Assembly: GCA_036517255.1 (NCBI GenBank) | Contig: DATDXE010000004.1 | Location: 94,543-131,804 of the forward strand | DNA length: 37,262 nt | Reading direction: 5' to 3' | Origin: Candidatus Paceibacterota bacterium | GTDB lineage: Bacteria > Patescibacteriota > Minisyncoccia > Phycocordibacterales > WO2-35-19 | Shown: piece after piece, positions 5,523 through 36,539 of the stretch | Position numbering within the stretch: the stretch's first letter is position 1 | Layout: each line of letters begins with the position of its first letter | Notes under the pieces: model-generated | What the model saw: the letters and a program-made list of their open reading frames with translations, nothing else | Database searches by the model: none | Told to the model about the DNA's origin: nothing | Made by a program: the position numbers and the translations under genes

Positions 5523-6389
5523 TTACTTCCTGAGAATCCCTTGCGGACGGAATAGTAAGAAAATTATTAAAAGTCCAAAAGCGATAGCGTCCTTCCACTC
5601 CCCCGAAATTTTCCAAATGCCAAAATTTTCGACGAAGCCCAAAAGAAAAGCTCCTAAAACCGCTCCATAAATATTTCCGATACCGCCGATGATGGAAGCG
5701 ATGATACCTTTCAGGAGGAGAGAGAGGCCCATAGTCGGCTCGACGCCAGTGTCGAAGCCAACAAGGATACCGGCAAGGCCGGCGATTGATGAGCCGATGA
5801 AGAAAACAGCGGCGATTATTTTATTGGTATTGATGCCGACTATTTTTGCCACTTCTTCATCATCAGCGACAGCGTTTACTGCTTTACCAAAAAGAGTTTT
5901 CTTCAAAATTACAGATAGGGTAACTGCGATCATAAGGCCACTTATGAGGATGACGGCTTGTACCTCTGTAATGATGGCGCCAAAGAGCTCAAATACACGA
6001 CTAGTACCACCTCCGATAGAGAGAGTTTGGAACTGGCTGGTAAAAATCATGGCCACAATAGCTTGAAGCACGGTGAGCATACCGAGAGAGGCCACGAGGA
6101 GGACCATGCTCGAAGCTTTGCGATCACGCAACTTTTTATAAACAAATTTATTTATCAAGTAGCCTACCGTACCAGTTATAAGTATGCCAAGGGAAACAGC
6201 AAGTGAGAGATCGAAACCGAGCTTTTTGTAAAAAAGAAAAACCATGTAGCCTCCGACGACAGTGAGCGCTCCATACCCGAGGTCAAAGAATTTTACTGTG
6301 CCGTAAATAAGATTGAACCCAAGCGCCACCATCATATATATGGCTCCAGCAATAATGCTATTGAATATGAGTTGCGGCAGAATATCCAT
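5523..6389 (-). CDS. livH: branched-chain amino acid ABC transporter permease LivH-like
   Basis: 288 residues, hydrophobic, about eight membrane spans. The start IFNSIIAGAIYMMVALGFNLIYGTVKFFDLGYGAL-type segment (residues 8-42) matches the LivH signature of a long first helix followed by a conserved NF-x-G motif. The loop LFGKAVNAVADDEEVAKIVGIN (about 166-187) is the ATPase-contact region. Partner of LivM. Follows a binding-protein gene (6468-7607) after a 78-nt gap that contains a hairpin able to lower readthrough. Confidence 0.9.
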   Translation of the reverse strand: MDILPQLIFNSIIAGAIYMMVALGFNLIYGTVKFFDLGYGALTVVGGYMVFLFYKKLGFDLSLAVSLGILITGTVGYLINKFVYKKLRDRKASSMVLLVASLGMLTVLQAIVAMIFTSQFQTLSIGGGTSRVFELFGAIITEVQAVILISGLMIAVTLSVILKKTLFGKAVNAVADDEEVAKIVGINTNKIIAAVFFIGSSIAGLAGILVGFDTGVEPTMGLSLLLKGIIASIIGGIGNIYGAVLGAFLLGFVENFGIWKISGEWKDAIAFGLLIIFLLFRPQGILRK

Positions 6390-6402
6390 TAGTCTGAATA
6401 TA

Positions 6403-6448
6403 ACAAAAACACCCGCCCTTCACAATTATTCAGGACAAGTGTTTTTGT
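6403..6448 (-). terminator. hairpin between first binding-protein gene and livH
   Basis: Perfect 10-bp inverted repeat ACAAAAACAC (6403-6412) / GTGTTTTTGT (6439-6448), 26-nt loop. Read on the minus strand the 3' arm is U-rich (GTGTTTTTGTTAT). It could act as a partial terminator or a 3' stabiliser, making the upstream binding-protein mRNA more abundant than the permease mRNA, as is common in binding-protein transport operons. The role is inferred. Confidence 0.55.
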
Positions 6449-6467
6449 AAATAACTCACTTTAAACT

Positions 6468-7607
6468 CTACTTCAATACTTCTGTCTTTCCATTCTTTAT
6501 AACTTCTGCTCTGTGACCTACGAGCGGATCACCATCAGATCCGATAGTTACCGAACCCGCAGCGCCTTGCCAATTCTTGACTTCACTATGAAGCCAATCC
6601 GCAATTTTTTCTCCATCATAACCGACTGCTTTTATAGCATCACGAATTATGAATGGCGCATCCCACTCCATCTGACCATAACTTTGGAAAGGCATATCTG
6701 TTCCATATGTAGATTTATAGAGATCAAGAGCATGTTTGAAGATCGGATTGTCCACATCAGTTCCAACTTCAGCCGTATAAGCTCCATCCAAAGTTGTTTT
6801 ATAAGTAGACATGGTAGCAGGATCTCCTGGGATTGCATCATTTACCAATAATTTCGGCTTCCATTGTAAATCTTGCATTGCTTTAAGAATCTTTTGACCC
6901 ATAGCAGGTGTTTGCACACTCATCATAAAGAAGTCAGCATTTGCAGCTTTGGCTTTAGTTACTAACTGTCTCATATCAGTAGCACTACTTGGAAATTCTT
7001 CTATTGTCACAGTACCACCAAGATCAGCAAAAGAAGTCTTCAAAGCATCTGCTATACCTTTAGCGTAATCAGTTTGTTCAGCTAGAACATACACAGTCTT
7101 AGCGCCTTGATCGTTAGCAATATTTGCTAGAACCTTACCTTGTGCTGAATCTCCAGGATAGTTTCGAGCGAAGTAGCGACTTTTTCCTGTAAGTCCTGGG
7201 TTGCTTGAGCCAGCTGAAAATAATGCCACCTTTGCAGTTTCGACTATTGGAATCGCAGCCAGTGATTCACCACTACAAAATCCACCAATAATCACTTGCA
7301 CTTTATCTACATTTACAAGTTTCTGTGCTGCGCTAGAAGCAGATGCACCAGTACACTTACCATCTTCGATTATAAGTTCAATCATGTTGCCGTCTATACC
7401 ACCAGCATCATTGATTTCTTTTACGGCCAGTTTATATACATTCACGCCTGGTTCACCATAGGCAGCGCCATCTCCAGTAAGAGGAGATATAACCCCAATC
7501 TTCACTGGACCGTCGAGGACGGCTTTTTGAGATTTATCACCAGTGAGGGCTGTGATGCCCCAAATAGCGAGGGCTAGGATTACTATCCAAATTATTGTCT
7601 TTTTCAT
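6468..7607 (-). CDS. ABC transporter substrate-binding protein (LivJ-like), operon leader gene
   Basis: 379 residues. N-terminal membrane segment MKKTIIWIVILALAIWGITAL without lipobox cysteine, then GPVKIGVISPLTGDGAAYGE, the classic start of the leucine/branched-chain amino-acid binding fold; ALFSAGSSNPGLT at about residues 135-147 is the amino-acid carboxylate/amine contact segment in this family. Of the five binding proteins it most resembles true LivJ. First gene of the operon, directly behind the promoter at 7681-7708. Confidence 0.92.
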   Translation of the reverse strand: MKKTIIWIVILALAIWGITALTGDKSQKAVLDGPVKIGVISPLTGDGAAYGEPGVNVYKLAVKEINDAGGIDGNMIELIIEDGKCTGASASSAAQKLVNVDKVQVIIGGFCSGESLAAIPIVETAKVALFSAGSSNPGLTGKSRYFARNYPGDSAQGKVLANIANDQGAKTVYVLAEQTDYAKGIADALKTSFADLGGTVTIEEFPSSATDMRQLVTKAKAANADFFMMSVQTPAMGQKILKAMQDLQWKPKLLVNDAIPGDPATMSTYKTTLDGAYTAEVGTDVDNPIFKHALDLYKSTYGTDMPFQSYGQMEWDAPFIIRDAIKAVGYDGEKIADWLHSEVKNWQGAAGSVTIGSDGDPLVGHRAEVIKNGKTEVLK

Positions 7608-7631
7608 TCGGTTAAAATTTTAATTTAATAA

Positions 7632-7670
7632 AAAGTTCTTTACTTAAGGAACTTTAAGCTGATTTAAGTA
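7632..7670 (-). promoter_or_regulatory. two overlapping leader hairpins upstream of the transporter operon
   Basis: In the leader RNA, AAAGTTC/GAACTTT (7649-7655 with 7632-7638 on the given strand) forms a hairpin followed by UUAUU. A second perfect 7-nt pair (7641-7647 with 7664-7670, TACTTAA/TTAAGTA) uses the loop of the first. The two cannot easily coexist, so this may be a weak attenuation switch. No known riboswitch is recognised. Confidence 0.35.
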
Positions 7671-7680
7671 CTTCTTTAAC

Positions 7681-7708
7681 AGTATAGGAATGCAGGTCAA
7701 TTTTGCAA
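7681..7708 (-). promoter_or_regulatory. sigma70-type promoter of the amino-acid transporter operon
   Basis: Minus strand TTGCAA (7703-7708), 16-nt spacer, TATACT (7681-7686); predicted start near 7674, about 67 nt before the ATG at 7607. No strong Shine-Dalgarno sequence precedes that ATG. Confidence 0.6.
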
Positions 7709-7747
7709 CACCAAAGGTGGATTATATGTGAAAGGACTTGTGCGGCC

Positions 7748-7776
7748 TTGACAGAATTTGGTGATGGGTATATAAT
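7748..7776 (+). promoter_or_regulatory. consensus sigma70 promoter of a non-coding RNA
   Basis: TTGACA (7748-7753), 17-nt spacer, TATAAT (7771-7776): both boxes match consensus. The bases before the -10 read ATGGGTA, a context shared with the promoters at 8573-8601 and 34864-34892. Confidence 0.85.
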
Positions 7777-7782
7777 GCCAGC

Positions 7783-7972
7783 AGTACAGCACTAATTGAT
7801 TTTTTACGAGATCGTTGTTGCCGGCCCCTCCGACCCGGTGGCGCGATGGGCGAAAGGCGCTCGAGATGTTTTTTAGCGAGGAGATCTGCACGCCTCGCTG
7901 TTTAGGCTCTCGAGCGCCTGGGACCCAACTTAAAATCGACCCGCACCTCATGAAGGTAGCGGGTTTCGTTTT
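7783..7972 (+). ncRNA. candidate structured non-coding RNA, about 190 nt, family unknown
   Basis: Starts behind a consensus promoter and ends at an intrinsic terminator; no convincing reading frame. It is much richer in GC than its flanks. Hairpins visible: ATCG/CGAT-based stem-loop over about 7812-7846; AGGCGCTCGAG (7855-7865) with CTCGAGCGCCT (7909-7919), enclosing AGCGAGG (7875-7881) / CCTCGCT (7893-7899); then the terminator. The signatures of SRP RNA, tmRNA and RNase P RNA that I know are absent. The rod-like stem recalls 6S RNA in size only. The opposite-strand frame of 84 codons has no family resemblance and is rejected. Confidence 0.6.
7939..7972 (+). terminator. intrinsic terminator of the candidate ncRNA
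   Basis: ACCCGC-ACCT (7939-7948) pairs with AGGT-A-GCGGGT (7954-7964), loop CATGA, followed by TTTCGTTTT. Confidence 0.8.
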
Positions 7973-8110
7973 ATAAAATATTTAGTCTAAAACTATTTGC
8001 CCCGCATATTACATTGCGGGACGCTTAATAAAATTGGCAGCCCAGTTGAGTACAATTGGACGCTCATTTTTTATAGTCACTCGCTTTGCTCGTTCGTTAA
8101 AAAATGGCGG

Positions 8111-8181
8111 CTGCTGGCCAGGGACTCGAACCCCAATACCATCCTCCAGAGGGATGTGTCCTACCGTTAGACGAGCCAGCA
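8111..8181 (-). tRNA. tRNA-Gln(CTG)
   Basis: Minus strand: acceptor TGCTGGC/GCCAGCA (7 bp), D arm with GTCT/GGAC, anticodon stem CATCC/GGATG with loop CTCTGGA giving anticodon CTG, T loop TTCGAGT. The starting U and the D-arm sequence fit bacterial Gln tRNAs. CCA is not encoded. Confidence 0.9.
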
Positions 8182-8182
8182 A

Positions 8183-8425
8183 TCAAAAAACTCTTTTCTT
8201 TAAATATAGTCTACCAAATCCTGTCTTGAGTTGCTTTTCTCGAGCTATAGCAGCTGATTCAGATAGACACCCTTCAAAATATACTAATTCTAGTGGCCGT
8301 CGATTTTTTGTAGATAAGACTTCGCCCTTAGAATGCATGGAAAAACGATTGGACAGATTTTTTGTCCAGCCGATATACAGATGGCCATCTTTATTGCTTC
8401 TCAAAACATATGTATAGAAGAACAT
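8183..8425 (-). CDS. GIY-YIG nuclease family protein, single domain
   Basis: 80 residues. TYVLRSNKDGHLYIGWTKNLSNRF has the two-strand GIY-YIG core (Y-V-L, then L-Y-I-G with the usual arginine at the start of the helix), and YFEGCLSESAAIAREKQLK has the downstream catalytic glutamate/EKQLK region of the UPF0213/YhbQ-like subfamily. Such stand-alone domains are common in this bacterial group; their substrate is not established. Its stop lies next to the 5' end of tRNA-Gln, and a 12-bp copy of that tRNA end lies on its other side (8492-8503). Confidence 0.9.
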   Translation of the reverse strand: MFFYTYVLRSNKDGHLYIGWTKNLSNRFSMHSKGEVLSTKNRRPLELVYFEGCLSESAAIAREKQLKTGFGRLYLKKRVF

Positions 8426-28911: not shown

Positions 28912-30486
28912 TTAAAAAGCGTTATATTGCGGGGTAGAGTAAAGTAATTCACTTGGCTCATAACCAAGAGATCCCGGTGCGAGTCCAGGCCCCGCAACAC
29001 GAATGTGACTTGTTTGAAAAGGTGAGAAATTTTGGAGCGCGGCGCGAAGCGCCGCGTATGGAAGAGAAGGGTTTTCTCGGACTTTTTTGTCGTGCAGAAT
29101 TAGGTTCGATCCGAAGATTTTCTGGAGAGATGATTTTTTGGAGGGGAGGTCGTTCCTTTCCGCGATTTTTCCTAGTGATGAGGCCGTATTTACCCACTCT
29201 TGCATTGGTGCGAGCCAATGGGTCGCATCTCTTTCTAACTTCTCAATTTTCTCCTCAAAATTTTTCTTGTCAGAGAAAAGTTTTGAGCGTTCTCGCAAAT
29301 AAGTTTCTCGATCAATATCTTGAGCGAGATAAACATCGAGCAGTCTCTGAATTTTTTCGGAAAGGTCATAAACCCTGTTTTGCACATCGGCAACGATTTT
29401 TGATGACTCAAAACTTCCTTTCCTTTTGTCTTCTTCCATCAATAAACCAAATTCGTTTGCCCACGGCGAAAGCATGGAGTAGTTAGAAAGAATTTCAGAG
29501 AATTGCTGATCTAAAACTTCTTGCCTGACCGCAATTTCTGAACATTTCATTACCTTAGATTTTTTAGTGCAACGATAATAAGTGTAGTGATGGATACTGT
29601 CCTTACATACTTTCGTTTTGTTTTCTGCCGTCACCATCATTCCACAAGTGCCGCAACGCAAAAGTCCGCAAAATACTTTTGGCTCACTTCTGGGCTTCAT
29701 CGGATTACCTCTCTCTATCATAACTTTTTGCACTTTATCAAAAAGTTGCTTTTCAATAATCGGTTTGTGCCGACCTTCGTGTATTTCCCCGCCATAACGA
29801 AAGTGACCATAATAAAATGGGTTGGAAAGAATTCTCTTTGCGCTATCCTTATGCAAAATATTTCCATAATAACTTTTGACTCCATTTTCAAAAAGAAAAT
29901 TTGAAATATCCTCAAGTCGTAAATTTCCTTTGGCATAAAGTTCAAAAGCAGAAAGAATTACTTTTGATTTCTCCTTATCAACCACAATTCTTTTTGTTCG
30001 CACATCATTTTGATATCCAGTCGGCGCGACACTTGGAAATTCTCCCCTTTTAACTTTTGCTCTTAATCCTCGTTTTACATTTGAACTCAAATCTCGAATA
30101 AATTGATTAGCCATTCCAAATTCTACTGACATCATCAAAACATTATCGCCAGAATAGTAATGGCTATTGTGAGCGCGAATATGCTGAATTATATTTTGTT
30201 GGAGCATCCAACTAATTTGTCCGCCATCCACCGGATTACGAGCCAAACGATCCAATTTCCAACAAATAATTCCTTGAGCTTCACCTTTCTGAATTCTTTT
30301 TATCATTTCATTAAACACCGGACGACCGGGCATTTTTGCCGTTCGCTTTTCTACAAATTCATTAGCAATTTCTAATCCTTCACTTTTAGCAAGCGTGCGA
30401 AGCTCAGCAAGTTGAGCTTCAATACTCAAAACTTGCTTGTCCTCAACATCTGTACTTTTACGCGCATATAAAAAATATTTATTCAT
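28912..30486 (-). CDS. large serine recombinase (site-specific integrase)
   Basis: 525 residues from ATG 30486 (MNKYFLYARKSTDVEDKQVLS); the upstream in-frame ATG at 30522 adds 12 residues encoded by a regulatory repeat and is rejected. The resolvase domain has the nucleophile serine in Y-A-R-K-S and WKLDRLARNPVDGG; then the recombinase domain (SVAPTGYQND, DSAKRILSNPFYYGHFRYGGE), a zinc ribbon (CGLLRCGTCGMMV...YYRCTKKS..KCSE) and a coiled coil. The C-terminal GLAPGSLGYEPSELLYSTPQ is the antisense translation of the tRNA at 28928-28997, so the gene runs through the tRNA-side boundary of the element. The 3' part is duplicated in inverted form at 31215-31318. Confidence 0.93.
   Translation of the reverse strand: MNKYFLYARKSTDVEDKQVLSIEAQLAELRTLAKSEGLEIANEFVEKRTAKMPGRPVFNEMIKRIQKGEAQGIICWKLDRLARNPVDGGQISWMLQQNIIQHIRAHNSHYYSGDNVLMMSVEFGMANQFIRDLSSNVKRGLRAKVKRGEFPSVAPTGYQNDVRTKRIVVDKEKSKVILSAFELYAKGNLRLEDISNFLFENGVKSYYGNILHKDSAKRILSNPFYYGHFRYGGEIHEGRHKPIIEKQLFDKVQKVMIERGNPMKPRSEPKVFCGLLRCGTCGMMVTAENKTKVCKDSIHHYTYYRCTKKSKVMKCSEIAVRQEVLDQQFSEILSNYSMLSPWANEFGLLMEEDKRKGSFESSKIVADVQNRVYDLSEKIQRLLDVYLAQDIDRETYLRERSKLFSDKKNFEEKIEKLERDATHWLAPMQEWVNTASSLGKIAERNDLPSKKSSLQKIFGSNLILHDKKVRENPSLPYAALRAALQNFSPFQTSHIRVAGPGLAPGSLGYEPSELLYSTPQYNAF
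28928..28997 (+). tRNA. divergent tRNA-Met-like gene (CAT) used as recombinase-side boundary
   Basis: Acceptor TGCGGGG/CCCCGCA, anticodon stem CTTGG/CCAAG with loop CTCATAA (anticodon CAT), T loop TGCGAGT. The D loop lacks the usual GG, the T stem has one mismatch, and T-loop position 55 is G, so it is divergent. The A11-T24 pair is initiator-like, but C1-A72 mismatch and the three G-C pairs are not met. It lies on the opposite strand within the 3' end of the recombinase gene. Confidence 0.65.
28996..29099 (+). repeat. inverted repeat copy A (recombinase 3' end)
   Basis: 104 nt starting exactly at the last bases of the tRNA (28996) and identical, apart from one base, to the reverse complement of 31215-31318. 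Similarity continues weakly to about 29160, matching 31150-31214 in reverse. Contains the palindrome GCGCGGCGCGAAGCGCCGCG. Confidence 0.9.
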
Positions 30487-30494
30487 ATAACTCA

Positions 30495-30580
30495 AATGAC
30501 CATCCCGGTGCACACAATCCAAGCCGCCCTGAACTGTTCCGAGATGGTCATTAGAAAAGACGACCTATTGATTGTGTGCA
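30495..30580. promoter_or_regulatory. two interleaved inverted repeats at the recombinase 5' end
   Basis: AATGACCATC (30495-30504) pairs with GATGGTCATT (30543-30552); TGCACACAATC (30509-30519) pairs with GATTGTGTGCA (30570-30580). The arms alternate, so as RNA they would form a pseudoknot and as DNA two overlapping dyads. They lie between the divergent starts of the recombinase and the gene at 30596: operators or recombinase/accessory binding sites. Confidence 0.65.
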
Positions 30581-31085: not shown

Positions 31086-31108
31086 TTAAAAAATAGGGAG
31101 CTGTTTGG

Positions 31109-31141
31109 GTGCGCGCGAATGGGTGGGTGGGTCAAGCGCAC
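31109..31141 (+). other. stem-loop with G-rich loop, copy 1
   Basis: Stem GTGCGC (31109-31114) / GCGCAC (31136-31141); 21-nt loop with GGGTGGGTGGGTCAA. The loop is nearly the same as that of 36561-36596, while the stem bases differ but still pair. The loop could form a G-quadruplex or bind a protein. Confidence 0.65.
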
Positions 31142-31150
31142 ATAAATTCG

Positions 31151-31319
31151 GACGACCTCCCCGACAAAAAATTGTCTTTCCAAAAAATCTTTGGATTTGT
31201 TTTTCCTTGAACCTTTCTGCACGACAAAAAAGTCCGAGAAAACCCTTCTTTTCCATACGCGGCGCTTCGCGCCGCGCTCCAAAATTTCTCACCTTTTCAA
31301 ACAAGTCACATTCGTGTTA
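31151..31319 (+). pseudogene. inverted fragment of the serine recombinase 3' end
   Basis: Translated on the plus strand, DLPDKKLSFQKIFG parallels DLPSKKSSLQKIFG of the recombinase, followed by a stop and a shift, then LHDKKVRENPSFPYAALRAAL and QNFSPFQTSHIRV, matching the recombinase C-terminal region. Similarity ends where the intact gene meets the tRNA. It is a non-coding remnant, probably the end of a second, related element in the opposite orientation. Confidence 0.75.
31215..31318 (-). repeat. inverted repeat copy B (recombinase 3' end)
   Basis: Reverse complement of 28996-29099 with one mismatch; see copy A. The outer boundary is at AACACG in both copies, which is next to the tRNA in copy A and next to unrelated sequence (CCTCTACGACC) here. 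Confidence 0.9.
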
Positions 31320-31405
31320 CCCTCTACGACCAAATCCGCACCTTTTTTCAAAACCAATAGCGCACGCTCCGCGCGCGTGGTGGCTTGGTATGTTCTCTTA
31401 CGCTC

Positions 31406-31585: not shown

Positions 31586-32716
31586 ATGAAAAATTTCAAT
31601 CCCACAGCAGCTTTTAAACCAGAAAAAAGGGTTGATTTAGGTAATAACCCAGAAAGCGAAGCTTTCGATTTTGAACAATATCGCCACGAACTTGCGCAAA
31701 CTCTTCGATCTATTCGCAATGGCGATCCAGAAAAAGGCATTACTCCTGATCCTATAGGAGCCGAACAATATTTGAAACAAGAAAGGATAAAATCTCGTTA
31801 CAACGCAGCTCTTGAATTACACCGCAGAAAAGAGAACGAATTACGTGGAAAGGATTATGAACATCGGGTAGATACCCTAATAGAAGAATACGAGGAATAC
31901 GTTGCTGGAAACGAACATGGAATTATTGGTAAGGAAAAATTTGAAGACCCAGAACAGATCGAGAGACCAAATTACGATGTTATCGATGAATCACCAATTT
32001 ATCCGTATGAAGATGACCTCAAACTTTCTGCCGAACAGAAAAAGAAGATGATGAAAATGGTTGTAGAATATCTCCGCACGCATAATATATTCGTACAATT
32101 TTCTAAAACAATTAACGATGTATCAGCTGACGATACAAAGGCTGGATATATAAAATTAAACGAGGACGGAAGCAGAGATCTTCCTATCGGTGAATTGATG
32201 GGCAATAAAATTATTCTCAATCCTTGGAATGTAGATTTTATGTCCACATTTTTAACTATTGGACATCTATATGGACACATGGTGCAGGAAATGAATTTGA
32301 AAGAATATGCAGGTATCCGTAAGTTTCTGACCTACCCAAAACCACTCGATATGGAAGTTGTCCAAAGAGAATACGCAGAAATGTATGGTGGTAGAGACTA
32401 TCGAGCGGATTTTAAAATTTTTGAAGAGGAGGCCTTTGCATATGCAAAATATACTTTTCAGCAAGCAGGGGTAGAATGGACTCCAGAATTGGAACACGCT
32501 ATGAGAACTTATATCGATACTGATTTTGATGAACTCTGGGAATGGTCAACACAAAACCCAGAAAAGAGTGCTCAAGATTTTATGACAAGATTTGAAGAAT
32601 ATTACAACGACGAAGATCGAAAGAAAGCGGAAACTCTAAAAGCAAAGGAAGTTGGCATCGTGGTTGTACCGAGTGGTGAAGGAGAAATAAGAGTAGTTCG
32701 AGAAGGTCAATTATAA
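31586..32716 (+). CDS. ImmA/IrrE-like protein with altered zinc site
   Basis: 376 residues. A helical, charged first half, then MVVEYLRTHNIFVQF, and FLTIGHLYGHMVQEMNLKEY (about 225-244), the position of HExxH in ImmA/IrrE metallopeptidases, followed by FEEEAFAYAKYTFQQAGVEW with the third-ligand E-x-E-A pattern. Here the catalytic glutamate is replaced (H-L-Y-G-H), so cleavage is doubtful. C-terminal acidic/basic helix and a short beta end. TATGAT lies just ahead of the ATG; no Shine-Dalgarno. Family members release repressors or sense DNA damage on mobile elements. Confidence 0.6.
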   Translation: MKNFNPTAAFKPEKRVDLGNNPESEAFDFEQYRHELAQTLRSIRNGDPEKGITPDPIGAEQYLKQERIKSRYNAALELHRRKENELRGKDYEHRVDTLIEEYEEYVAGNEHGIIGKEKFEDPEQIERPNYDVIDESPIYPYEDDLKLSAEQKKKMMKMVVEYLRTHNIFVQFSKTINDVSADDTKAGYIKLNEDGSRDLPIGELMGNKIILNPWNVDFMSTFLTIGHLYGHMVQEMNLKEYAGIRKFLTYPKPLDMEVVQREYAEMYGGRDYRADFKIFEEEAFAYAKYTFQQAGVEWTPELEHAMRTYIDTDFDELWEWSTQNPEKSAQDFMTRFEEYYNDEDRKKAETLKAKEVGIVVVPSGEGEIRVVREGQL

Positions 32717-32748
32717 AAAACCCGCCAGAGGTCTTTCGACATGGCGGG
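32715..32748 (-). terminator. intrinsic terminator of the four-gene operon
   Basis: CCCGCCA (32721-32727) / TGGCGGG (32742-32748) with an inner GTC-GAAA-GAC hairpin; on the minus strand followed by TTTTTT (32715-32720). Touches the stop of the converging gene. Confidence 0.85.
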
Positions 32749-32771: not shown

Positions 32772-33182
32772 TTAGACCGGTGAGGCGAAGCGGTTCACTG
32801 GAAGAACCCAGTACCACGTGTTCGCTGTCTCCCTCTTGGCTCTTTCCTCAGCATTTTCGCGTTTAGCATAAGCTTCGGTAGCAAACCAGGAGGTCGGAGC
32901 GAACTGTCCATCGTAGGTCTGAGACGCTTGCACCAGAACGAAAATCTGTTCTGGTAGAGTTTCCTCTTTGCGAGTATCCCACACACTACATTCTTCGCTC
33001 CAGATGTGCGCCGGTCGAGGACTGTCATTGAAGCCTTGCGGGGCTTTCTCTTTTCTTTCTCCCTCTGCCCAGAACCGTGCACTCATCTTGGGATACTCCG
33101 GCTTACGCATGCATTTATAGTCAGAATCCAAACGAACACTGACCAAAATCTGCTTTTGCTCTCCGTATGTAACGTTGCTCAT
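32772..33182 (-). CDS. hypothetical protein, last gene of the hairpin-leader operon
   Basis: ATG 33182 (MSNVTYGEQKQILVSVRLDSD) has AAGGAG six bases upstream. A longer frame starting at 33260 with MGAIPMFFEF is only the translation of the conserved intergenic hairpin and is rejected. 136 residues, tryptophan-rich, soluble, mixed alpha/beta: FWAEGERKEKAPQGF, IFVLVQASQTYDGQFAPTSWFATEAYAKREN, then ANTWYWVLPV. No family recognised. Confidence 0.75.
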   Translation of the reverse strand: MSNVTYGEQKQILVSVRLDSDYKCMRKPEYPKMSARFWAEGERKEKAPQGFNDSPRPAHIWSEECSVWDTRKEETLPEQIFVLVQASQTYDGQFAPTSWFATEAYAKRENAEERAKRETANTWYWVLPVNRFASPV

Positions 33183-33202
33183 TGTCATCTCCTTATTCCA
33201 TG

Positions 33203-33258
33203 TCTGCCAATACTGGTCAGAGCTTACAGGAAATTCAAAGAACATCGGGATTGCTCCC
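33203..33258 (-). promoter_or_regulatory. intergenic RNA module 1
   Basis: Hairpin TCTGACCAGTATTGGCAGA (33203-33221, read on the minus strand) just before the Shine-Dalgarno. Upstream of it are GTTCTTTG and GGGA-GCAA-TCCC (33247-33258), a GNRA-capped hairpin, which can instead pair as part of GCTCCCACTAAAA/TTTTAGTGGGAGC. The outer pair is U-A where other copies have C-G. Confidence 0.7.
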
Positions 33259-33331
33259 ACTAAAACATTCTTAATAAAAATATTTTAGTGGGAGCCCGAT
33301 CCGAAGATCGGGCGCCTGCACAAGCAGGACT

Positions 33332-33556
33332 TTAAACTCTCGGCTTACCAACAACCGCGTAGTGATTGGTTCTCTCGCGGTTAATGCCAAAATCGAAGGC
33401 GGTGTGGGTAATCATGGTTATGAGTTCCCATCCATCCGCCAGATAGCGATTGAGTTCCGCTTCTGCCGGTTTTCGATCTTTCTCGTCAGCGCGTCGAGCA
33501 CTGTTATCAATTGGAAAATCCAATGTCTTAACTTCCGAATACTTTCCGTTCGTCAT
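33332..33556 (-). CDS. DUF4177/DUF1737-like small protein
   Basis: ATG 33556 (MTNGKYSEVKTLDFPID) lies six bases after AAGGAG. 74 residues: a strand, a charged helix ending in LNRYLADGWELITMI, and a last strand with NHYAVVGKP. Strand-helix-(L/A)-x-x-GWEL-strand is the pattern of DUF4177/DUF1737 small proteins. Their function is unknown. Third gene of the operon. Confidence 0.72.
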   Translation of the reverse strand: MTNGKYSEVKTLDFPIDNSARRADEKDRKPAEAELNRYLADGWELITMITHTAFDFGINRERTNHYAVVGKPRV

Positions 33557-33575
33557 TGCTATCTCCTTATCCCTA

Positions 33576-33631
33576 CCTGCCAATACTGGTCAGGGTTTAT
33601 GGGATTTCAAAGAACTTCTGGGATTGCTCCC
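33576..33631 (-). promoter_or_regulatory. intergenic RNA module 2
   Basis: Hairpin CCTGACCAGTATTGGCAGG (33576-33594, minus strand), GTTCTTTG upstream and GGGA-GCAA-TCCC (33620-33631). Same spacing as module 1. Farther upstream toward the previous stop, GCCGAACA/TGTTCGGC and an A/T-rich CAGAGAAAA.../TTTTCTG stem occupy about 33640-33700. Confidence 0.7.
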
Positions 33632-33765
33632 ACCGCAGAAAACTTTTTCAAATTTTCTCTGGTAGAAGCCGAACATTTGTTCGGCACCTACGTGGCAGGA
33701 TTTAGAATCTTTTCGTGTCACATTTTTGGAGACATCAGGGGTTCCAACCCTTACTTTGCTTTCCT

Positions 33766-34050
33766 CTACTTCATGAGTTTGTAGCACACCGCAAAGAAGT
33801 CTCGGTGGTACACGTAGCAACTTTTGCTTCCCGGTATCTTCCACCCTTCGGCGAATGCGAAATTGTCCGTTATGGTCAGCATTTCTGCTTCCACATCCTT
33901 CGGATCAATCCCATATCCTTTCAGGATTTCGGCAACCTTGTCGACAACTTCTTGTGTGCCATTTCCGCACACCATGCAGCCGTTTCCGGCTACGAGATCG
34001 TTGACTTGGTCTTGCAACTCGTGAAAGCTATTACCTTTTTGTGTGAACAT
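33766..34050 (-). CDS. hypothetical protein, second gene of the hairpin-leader operon
   Basis: ATG 34050 (MFTQKGNSFHELQDQ) chosen because AAAAGGAG lies just ahead; longer in-frame starts run through the Shine-Dalgarno and the hairpin. 94 residues: helix, then VAGNGCMVCGNGTQEVVDKVAEILKGYG, with a CxxC pair that might bind metal, then AEGWKIPGSKSCYVYHRDFFAVCY. Four cysteines in all. No family recognised. Confidence 0.7.
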   Translation of the reverse strand: MFTQKGNSFHELQDQVNDLVAGNGCMVCGNGTQEVVDKVAEILKGYGIDPKDVEAEMLTITDNFAFAEGWKIPGSKSCYVYHRDFFAVCYKLMK

Positions 34051-34069
34051 TTCAAACTCCTTTTCCATA

Positions 34070-34135
34070 CCTCCCAATACTGGTGAGGGTTTAGAGGAAA
34101 GTGGTTTTCTTACAAAGAACTTTGGGATTGCTCCC
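34070..34135 (-). promoter_or_regulatory. intergenic RNA module 3
   Basis: Hairpin CCTCACCAGTATTGGGAGG (34070-34088, minus strand): the fourth pair is C-G where other copies have G-C, a compensatory change. Upstream TTCTTTG and GGGA-GCAA-TCCC (34124-34135). Then an A/T-rich CACTCAAGTTTT/AAAACTTAAGTG stem, GGGAGAG/CTCTCCC and CCTGT/ACAGG hairpins toward the previous stop (to about 34205). Confidence 0.72.
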
Positions 34136-34220
34136 ACTTAAGTTTTCAAAATTTAAAAACTTGAGTGGAAGCGGGAGAGCAGACTCTCCCGACCTGTTCG
34201 TCACAGGATTTGTGTCGGAC

Positions 34221-34805
34221 TTAAAACTTCAAGTCCTTGAACTTCATTGATGTTGCGCCACGGCGACCCTCAAACCATACTTGGATAATGTCAGTTGATC
34301 CTCGGGTGAACGGCTCATAGATGTCAACCACGAGACCTCTTGTTCCCTCAGGGATACTGAATCGTCCGTTTGAGGCAACCATGTCGCCGACCCTAACTTT
34401 GTCACCCACACCAGAATTGTTTTCGGCGGCCACGATTGATCCCCACTCCTTGTGAATGATTATGCCGTGGCAATCGATCAATTCTTTCTCTGGTGGGTTA
34501 CCGTCGCCGAGAAGTTCGAGTTTGCCCTTGCGAGCTTTGGTGTCGTAACACCCTTTCACTCGATGCTTCAGAACTTCATCGGGACCGTCAACCACAGTGC
34601 CTTCGAATTTCCAGGCTTCGCACGATCCTTGTTCCTGTTTGATCGATGGAATGATGACATGCACGTTCACCGTGCGATTCTCACCAGTCCAGTCTTCAAT
34701 CAGAAGCATGACTTCGCGTCCGGGTTCATGATCGCGATCAAAGACCGCTAACATCAGATCCCACTTGGAAGGTCCACCTACGATATTCAATGATTTAGTT
34801 GCCAT
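34221..34805 (-). CDS. hypothetical protein, first gene of the hairpin-leader operon
   Basis: 194 residues from ATG 34805 with AAAGGAG seven bases upstream. Mostly beta: MLAVFDRDHEPGREVMLLIEDW, VNVHVIIPSIKQEQ, VEGTVVDGP-like strands, and a C-terminal barrel-like part VGDMVASNGRFSIPEGTRGLVVDIYEPFTRGSTDIIQVWFEG that reads like an SH3/KOW-type barrel. No membrane segment. No family recognised. Behind the strongest promoter of the window. Confidence 0.75.
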   Translation of the reverse strand: MATKSLNIVGGPSKWDLMLAVFDRDHEPGREVMLLIEDWTGENRTVNVHVIIPSIKQEQGSCEAWKFEGTVVDGPDEVLKHRVKGCYDTKARKGKLELLGDGNPPEKELIDCHGIIIHKEWGSIVAAENNSGVGDKVRVGDMVASNGRFSIPEGTRGLVVDIYEPFTRGSTDIIQVWFEGRRGATSMKFKDLKF

Positions 34806-34829
34806 TCGACAACTCCTTTTTTCAATGTG

Positions 34830-34848
34830 CCTGCCAATACTGGTCAGG
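34830..34848 (-). promoter_or_regulatory. 5'-UTR hairpin of the four-gene operon
   Basis: CCTGACCAGTATTGGCAGG on the minus strand: CCUG/CAGG and CCA/UGG pairs, one bulged A, loop GUAU. Lies between the promoter start point (about 34857) and the Shine-Dalgarno. Confidence 0.75.
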
Positions 34849-34863
34849 ACTTATCTACCCTCT

Positions 34864-34892
34864 ATTATACACCCATTTGGACTTCCTGTCAA
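34864..34892 (-). promoter_or_regulatory. consensus promoter of the four-gene operon
   Basis: Minus strand TTGACA (34887-34892), 17-nt spacer, TATAAT (34864-34869); ATGGGTG before the -10 box. Confidence 0.9.
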
Positions 34893-35852: not shown

Positions 35853-36539
35853 ATGTCAGACGAAGAAACCACACAACCATCACCTGAACCAACAACTTCA
35901 CCGGAAAACCCAATTTCTGAACCTAACCCTGTACCTGTAAGCCCCCAAGAGCTTACGGTAGAAGCACCTATCCAGCCGACAGAATCTACTTCTGTCGAAG
36001 TATTACCTGTGGCCCCAGAAACTCCTGCAAACCCCGAAAGTGCCGTTCCGGTCACTAATGATATTCCTGCAAATGAGCCGTTAGGACCAGCTCCTGTAGC
36101 TGAAATCCCAAATGAGCCTTTAAACCATACACCAGAGCCAGAAATAACAGCTAACCCAATCAACCCGAATATCACAATCGAAAAGCACGGAAATGACGTA
36201 ACAATTACTGAAGTCATGCAACCAACGGCTCACTCCGAACCCGCAACGGCTCAAATGGCAGGAAATGAGCCGTTAGATCTCGTAGAAGAAGAAAAGGCAA
36301 AAAAGAGAGAAGAAAACCTAAAACTAGCTAACCAAAATAGACAAGACAAAAAGAGAAAGAAAATTGATGCAATTTTAGATTTGTTTGCGAAGCAAACAAA
36401 TCTCACAAACGATGAAGTGGAAAAACTTTTGCATGTCTCCGATGCAACAGCAACAAGATATTTAGAAACTCTGGAAAAAGAAGGAAAAATAAAACAAGTT
36501 GGAAAAACTGGAAAGGGGGTAATGTACGAAAAAATCTGA
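35853..36539 (+). CDS. proline-rich protein with C-terminal winged helix
   Basis: 228 residues. Residues 1-130 are disordered and rich in P, E and T with degenerate repeats containing NEPL (three times). A charged helix (VEEEKAKKREENLKLAN) leads to a winged-HTH of the DeoR/MarR type at about 170-228 (KKIDAILDLFAKQTNLTNDEVEKLLHVSDATATRYLETLEKEGKIKQVGKTGKGVMY). A DNA-binding regulator with a long flexible arm; it may act on the palindrome at 34906. A 31-nt palindromic repeat lies inside the coding sequence. Confidence 0.78.
   Translation: MSDEETTQPSPEPTTSPENPISEPNPVPVSPQELTVEAPIQPTESTSVEVLPVAPETPANPESAVPVTNDIPANEPLGPAPVAEIPNEPLNHTPEPEITANPINPNITIEKHGNDVTITEVMQPTAHSEPATAQMAGNEPLDLVEEEKAKKREENLKLANQNRQDKKRKKIDAILDLFAKQTNLTNDEVEKLLHVSDATATRYLETLEKEGKIKQVGKTGKGVMYEKI
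36245..36275 (+). repeat. 31-nt palindromic element inside the wHTH gene
   Basis: Arms AACGGCTCA (36245-36253) / TGAGCCGTT (36266-36274). The whole 31 nt is the reverse complement of 37033-37063. It encodes TAQMAGNEPL-type sequence. Confidence 0.8.

Follow-up and report, generated by a model that had tools for sequence, protein, structure and literature searches.

The analysed stretch of DNA, hereafter called the window, comprises 37,262 nucleotides of a Candidatus Paceibacterota genome and carries on its minus strand an operon of four small genes, otherwise unrelated to one another (Table 1). None of the four proteins belongs to a Pfam family above cut-off. The promoter upstream of gene 1 is a perfect TTGACA-17-TATAAT, matching the consensus at 12 of 12 positions as the preliminary description had said, and each of the four reading frames has an AAGGAG-type Shine-Dalgarno sequence (SD). 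The same description had placed a hairpin at 33203, 33576, 34070 and 34830, each before a strong SD, and all four were recovered there on the minus strand. With up to 3 mismatches allowed, dinucleotide shuffles expect 0.01 such copies, and the search of the whole genome (696 kb) returned just these four. The two base pairs reported as changed on both sides were likewise seen, in copies 1 and 3. The limits of the unit had to be corrected, from 33203-34848 to a real span of about 32772-34892.

Table 1. Features of the four-gene operon in the direction of transcription, and large serine recombinase genes located near the motif in three genomes.
Feature	Position	Strand	Remarks
Promoter	34864..34892	-	TTGACA 34892-34887, 17-nt spacer, TATAAT 34869-34864
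Motif copy 4, leader of gene 1	34817..34856	-	Hairpin 34830-34848; E 4e-7
SD AAAGGAG, gene 1	34813..34819	-	From sequence
Gene 1, 194 aa	34221..34805	-	Without Pfam family
Spacer hairpin C (CUUCCACU...AGUGGGAG)	34129..34172	-	Alternative pairing GGGA-GCAA-UCCC
GUUCUUUG (boxA-like)	34113..34120	-	
Motif copy 3	34057..34100	-	Hairpin 34070-34088; G-C swapped to C-G; E 1e-8
Gene 2, 94 aa	33766..34050	-	No family above cut-off
Spacer hairpin C, second copy	33625..33669 (limits approximate)	-	
GUUCUUUG (boxA-like)	33608..33615	-	
Motif copy 2	33563..33606	-	Hairpin 33576-33594; outer stem AUCCC/GGGAU; E 7.5e-10
Gene 3, 74 aa	33332..33556	-	DUF4177 similarity weak, below cut-off
Spacer hairpin C, first copy	33253..33295	-	21-bp arms
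GUUCUUUG (boxA-like)	33236..33243	-	
Motif copy 1	33190..33233	-	Hairpin 33203-33221; C-G swapped to U-A; E 1.3e-8
Gene 4, 136 aa	32772..33182	-	No family
Intrinsic terminator CCCGCC...GGCGGG-UUUUUU	32710..32748	-	Operon end; from sequence
Serine recombinase, window	28912-30522		
Serine recombinase, L067	9245-10399		
Serine recombinase, L107	6736-7374		

Some features of the surroundings were recorded as well. Distant relatives of gene 1 occur in other Patescibacteria without the motif and with another leader hairpin, which in most of them (L055-L063) has the conserved form CCUGAUC-GGAU/GUAU-GGUCAGG and lies close after the promoter. In three genomes a large serine recombinase is encoded no more than a few kb from the motif. 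The 3' end of the one in the window overlaps a tRNA-Met gene (28928-28998) on the opposite strand, and a stretch 65% identical to its C-terminal region appears again at 31106-31321. A proline-rich winged-helix gene adjoins the operon both here (G000, window 35853-36539) and in G052 (L066 2581-3075). Its product was considered as a trans-regulator and rejected, the family being present also in genomes with no motif detected.

An exact-sequence search of 98 relatives gave counts near background, thus the sequence itself is not conserved. Searching Patescibacteria with covariance models, the check which the preliminary description had proposed, gave another picture. Model R1, built from the four window copies, matched clustered copies within the same order (three in G052, two in G170) and one strong copy in G296; in these matches the apical stem carries compensated changes, and an additional outer stem flanks the hairpin. 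The second and third models, R2 and R3, matched three copies in G616, five in G194 and three in G170, together with mostly single copies in some 20 further genomes from the order, the class and the phylum. In total, the fold was found in about 25 other Patescibacteria genomes. At E<=0.02 it was detected in 17 of 368 genomes of the class and 7 of 380 of the phylum, figures which are lower bounds because the filters were strict. The distribution is patchy, and the genome's own family is mostly without the motif, with one weak match in G003. One match (L114) may be false, and two matches in L102 precede ORFs of only about 20 aa (MAMYDEVRCRGQP... and MTMYNQVRCRGQP..., near the start of that operon).

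The fold was described from 44 aligned copies. The 19-nt hairpin noticed at the beginning is present, but the RNA is larger and includes an outer stem and a further base pair. The outer stem consists of 4-5 hypervariable pairs, such as UUCC/GGAA, UUCCA/UGGAA or GCUCA/UGAGC, and ends a few nucleotides before the SD. RUAA comes next, with U in 44/44 copies and each A in 43/44. It is followed by a G-C or A-U pair and, in 41/44 copies, by a bulged pyrimidine. In the core, CCU(S) pairs with (S)AGG, where CCU/AGG is invariant, and an A is bulged in 43/44 copies; above it there are usually two to three pairs and then a free loop. The bulged A and the tetraloop had both been described as fixed, which holds for the bulged A; the loop is fixed in its own genome only and varies between genomes (GNRA, GUAU, longer, and UUCG in viral copies). 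The conserved portion is accordingly the lower stem with its two bulges. In motif copy 4 the outer stem is weak or absent.

Among the 44 copies, 12 of 13 pairs show changes of both partners, a result which none of 500 shuffles matched and which collapses in slid controls; an earlier set of nine sequences had given 9 of 12 pairs, likewise with 0/500 shuffles. The further pair, UAA-[G|A]...[C|U], was left unpaired in every search model. It is kept in 40/44 rows as 21 G-C and 19 A-U (Fisher about 1e-9; 2e-6 with each locus and type counted once), and it differs even among the four window copies, with copy 4 having the G-C form. Its covariation is the cleanest independent evidence for a selected RNA structure. 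Neither of the outcomes which the preliminary description had set against its own claim, exact repeats only or hairpins unrelated to gene starts, was found.

In most model matches an ORF begins shortly downstream, its start codon lying 3-13 nt beyond the motif end that bears the SD. The downstream proteins are unrelated, all-against-all BLAST giving a single significant, though weak, pair, and they include a histidine phosphatase-like protein, a TauD-like dioxygenase, many unknowns and, as read from sequence, receiver-like, SPFH-like and membrane proteins. The SD adjacency in the Patescibacteria set was partly selected for, since all covariance models contain the SD. The viral set is free of this bias: here the search pattern was the conserved core, without SD, start codon or outer stem. 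It found 21 IMG/VR contigs, in which 20 of 22 sites lie before an SD, a start codon and an ORF of at least 50 codons, as compared with 4.6% of random positions on the same contigs (P about 4e-25). The remaining two lie at a contig end and before a 15-aa ORF. Covariation of the outer stem is seen in the viral set too (5/5 pairs). One viral downstream gene codes for a RecE-like exonuclease, and in another viral contig (L131, 76-173) two tandem motif copies precede a single start codon. The hosts of these viruses are probably not only Patescibacteria, because the nearest relatives of the L161 endolysin include those of Alicyclobacillus and Paenibacillus phages (29-36% identity). Short-query BLAST, an insensitive method, gave no motif copy in the isolate phages searched, and its matches in phiKZ and Psa21 were terminator-like hairpins. 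Several other viral pattern matches were discarded: among the first ones, L064 as a chance match inside a phage coding sequence and L065 as chance with a partial weak model match only, and later L127, L129, L130, L132 and L133 as chance coding matches.

The folded RNA probably acts as a portable signal in protein synthesis, serving either control or recruitment. In a more definite form, to which we assign a probability of roughly 0.6 on sequence grounds, the motif would be a structured 5'-UTR element, portable between unrelated genes, which controls or promotes translation initiation. RUAA, the bulged pyrimidine and the bulged A on the invariant CCU/AGG stem would be read next to the SD by one conserved trans-acting partner, which may be an RNA-binding protein or the 30S ribosome, and this partner would set the translation of every motif-bearing gene, upward or downward. 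We favour translational control through a partner that many hosts share because the unpaired bases are conserved, the distance to the SD is fixed and the identity of the gene is irrelevant. The free variation of the apical loop limits any model in which the loop is read. Selection on an RNA-protein contact or on shared translational control had been proposed from the four hairpins; selection on an RNA structure at translation starts is strongly supported, whereas the RNA-protein contact is plausible in view of the conservation of unpaired bases (UAA in 43-44/44 copies, bulged A in 43/44). Such bases, in a compact fold placed in a 5'-UTR, could also belong to a riboswitch for a widespread small ligand, in which an alternative fold could bring UCCU into pairing with the SD. 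This we consider very unlikely, as the downstream genes have no evident pathway in common, an expression platform is not conserved, and no family of the Rfam 15 covariance models matches the motif. Opening of the SD by the fold was not supported by partition-function folding (accessibility 0.53 with the motif and 0.49 in shuffled leaders, p=0.21).

In multi-gene operons, where every gene would have its own copy of the motif, the spacers carry upstream of it either a hammerhead ribozyme or a triple hairpin, mostly followed by GUUCUUU. Triple hairpins were found in the window, G052, G170 and G616; in the window, hairpins A and B lie between the gene 3 stop codon and the first copy of hairpin C. 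The 3' arm of the third hairpin can pair, as seen by eye, with the next bases (GGGA-GCAA-UCCC, GGAA-GUAA-UUCC, GGGU-GAAUA-ACCC), which would make the two folds mutually exclusive. Four hammerheads were identified in G194 (L093/L102; E 7e-8 to 6.5e-5), where some 17-28 nt separate them from the motif downstream, and one in G052 (L026; E 1.2e-5), with GUUCUUUG and a hairpin of another kind following it. Their scores of 38-48 bits do not exceed the curated cut-off (48.5); the spacers of both genomes contain the CUGAUGA...GAAA core and three stems, and for L026 and the best copies in L093 the core was judged intact. In L102 (G194:C37:18000-32000; 6180-8420, minus strand) hammerheads stand before four consecutive units of one operon, each arranged as hammerhead, GUUCUUU-like element, motif and SD. 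A hairpin with AAAUCCUG...CAGGU occurs 3' of genes almost only in multi-gene operons, and the idea that the motif is part of such a 3' signal was rejected. The second gene of the G052 operon (L066 3628-4479) encodes a C-terminal RNA polymerase alpha C-terminal domain (Pfam E 3.5e-13), which the third gene of the G170 operon resembles by eye.

The order hammerhead, hairpin and RBS in G194 resembles the layout of RiboJ. The motif could be a passive insulator which, like a natural RiboJ, keeps the SD unpaired, the least probable of the explanations weighed here; the predicted SD accessibility does not rise over shuffled leaders, and the conserved unpaired bases are left unexplained. Another possibility is that the fold serves mRNA stability and processing, guarding the 5' end from decay while the ribozymes or hairpins of the spacers divide the operon transcript into mRNAs of one gene each. 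The G194 hammerheads, which occupy several spacers in a row, and the one in G052 agree with this, as do two ribozymes located between genes in viral contigs with the motif, a twister-P5 above cut-off (L126 6167-6222) and a type II hammerhead (L125 1013-1066; E 0.019, below cut-off, its core looking intact by eye), and the start of the gene 1 fold close to the predicted transcription start. Clustered prophage hammerheads were proposed by Perreault et al. (PMC3088659) to cut transcripts into operon- or gene-length mRNAs. The intergenic ribozymes found here would similarly yield gene-length mRNAs, and by analogy G194 fits that proposal, differing in the second RNA motif that stands ahead of every SD; the window differs in being without a hammerhead. 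Still, we regard stability or processing as an unlikely function of the fold itself: protection alone needs neither conserved bulges nor a fixed SD distance, many copies are far from any promoter, and no hammerhead matched at gathering score in the window or at E<=5 in L025. The favoured translational reading itself includes processing: the upstream element, a hammerhead in two other genomes and a triple hairpin here, would cut the transcript into single-gene units, so that with the spacer elements and GUUCUUUG upstream every gene may end up on an mRNA of its own. The boldest version of the translational reading, in which the motif is a phage-borne, gene-independent initiation module, usable before any gene, whose fold the ribosome or some universal factor recognises, and which acts with self-cleaving ribozymes in Patescibacteria operons to give separately translated single-gene mRNAs, is tentative, and we lean against it.

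A boxA-like element is enriched upstream of the motif (20/43 copies); when the discovery genomes are set aside, 11 of 33 motifs have GUUCUUU in the 60 nt before them, where 0.3 were expected. Together with UUUCUUUGAG in the genome's own 16S leader, this recalls antitermination, with GUUCUUUG as boxA and the motif as a boxB-like hairpin bound by an antiterminator. As in the lambda nut site (boxA + boxB), a boxA-like element precedes a hairpin in these copies. This explanation is nevertheless improbable: roughly every second copy overall, and two thirds of those that are independent, have no GUUCUUU, of the 16S leaders read the genome's own is alone in having a similar element, and a boxB need not adjoin an SD, while the motif does.

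Patescibacteria are mostly uncultured, and few regulatory RNAs are known there. The motif adds a conserved RNA fold common to Patescibacteria and viral contigs and tied to the translation starts of unrelated genes. It would mark accessory genes that are handled together and offers a handle for finding the trans-acting partner, and the hammerheads before consecutive genes, together with the motif, suggest operons built from single-gene mRNA units.

In the open-access literature no earlier description of the motif was found. The likeness to phage coat-protein operators, suggested for the layout only, holds at that level: those of MS2/R17 and PP7 also have a stem, a bulged A, a short upper stem and a small loop. 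In the MS2 operator two pairs separate the bulged A from the loop, as in the G170 copies. The motif differs in its non-conserved loop, unrelated genes, extra bulged pyrimidine and outer stem. An MS2-type operator proper was rejected on the ANYA loop with a bulged A two pairs below, given the loops of the motif, and on the start codon inside the hairpin, since SD and start codon of the motif lie 3' of the fold. An integron attC site (GTTRRRY core sites) was also rejected, the repeated element of the window being GTTCTTT. The GUCCY-hairpin of 2010, reported from Bacteroidetes and Proteobacteria and without an Rfam entry (PMC2864571), has, as far as its name tells, a similar pentamer in a hairpin, yet that of the motif is mostly GYCCU or AYCCU with an invariant last U. 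As a test for the start-associated sequences (SAS) and extended SAS of Cluster K mycobacteriophages, phage TM4 was searched with the covariance model, which found no motif in its right half (26-52.8 kb). The start-associated sequences of Cluster K mycobacteriophages, which are repeated at the translation starts of many unrelated genes and in about half of the cases extended by an inverted repeat just upstream (PMC3203893), differ from the motif in sequence but, being a repeated element at unrelated gene starts, are the nearest to it in concept.
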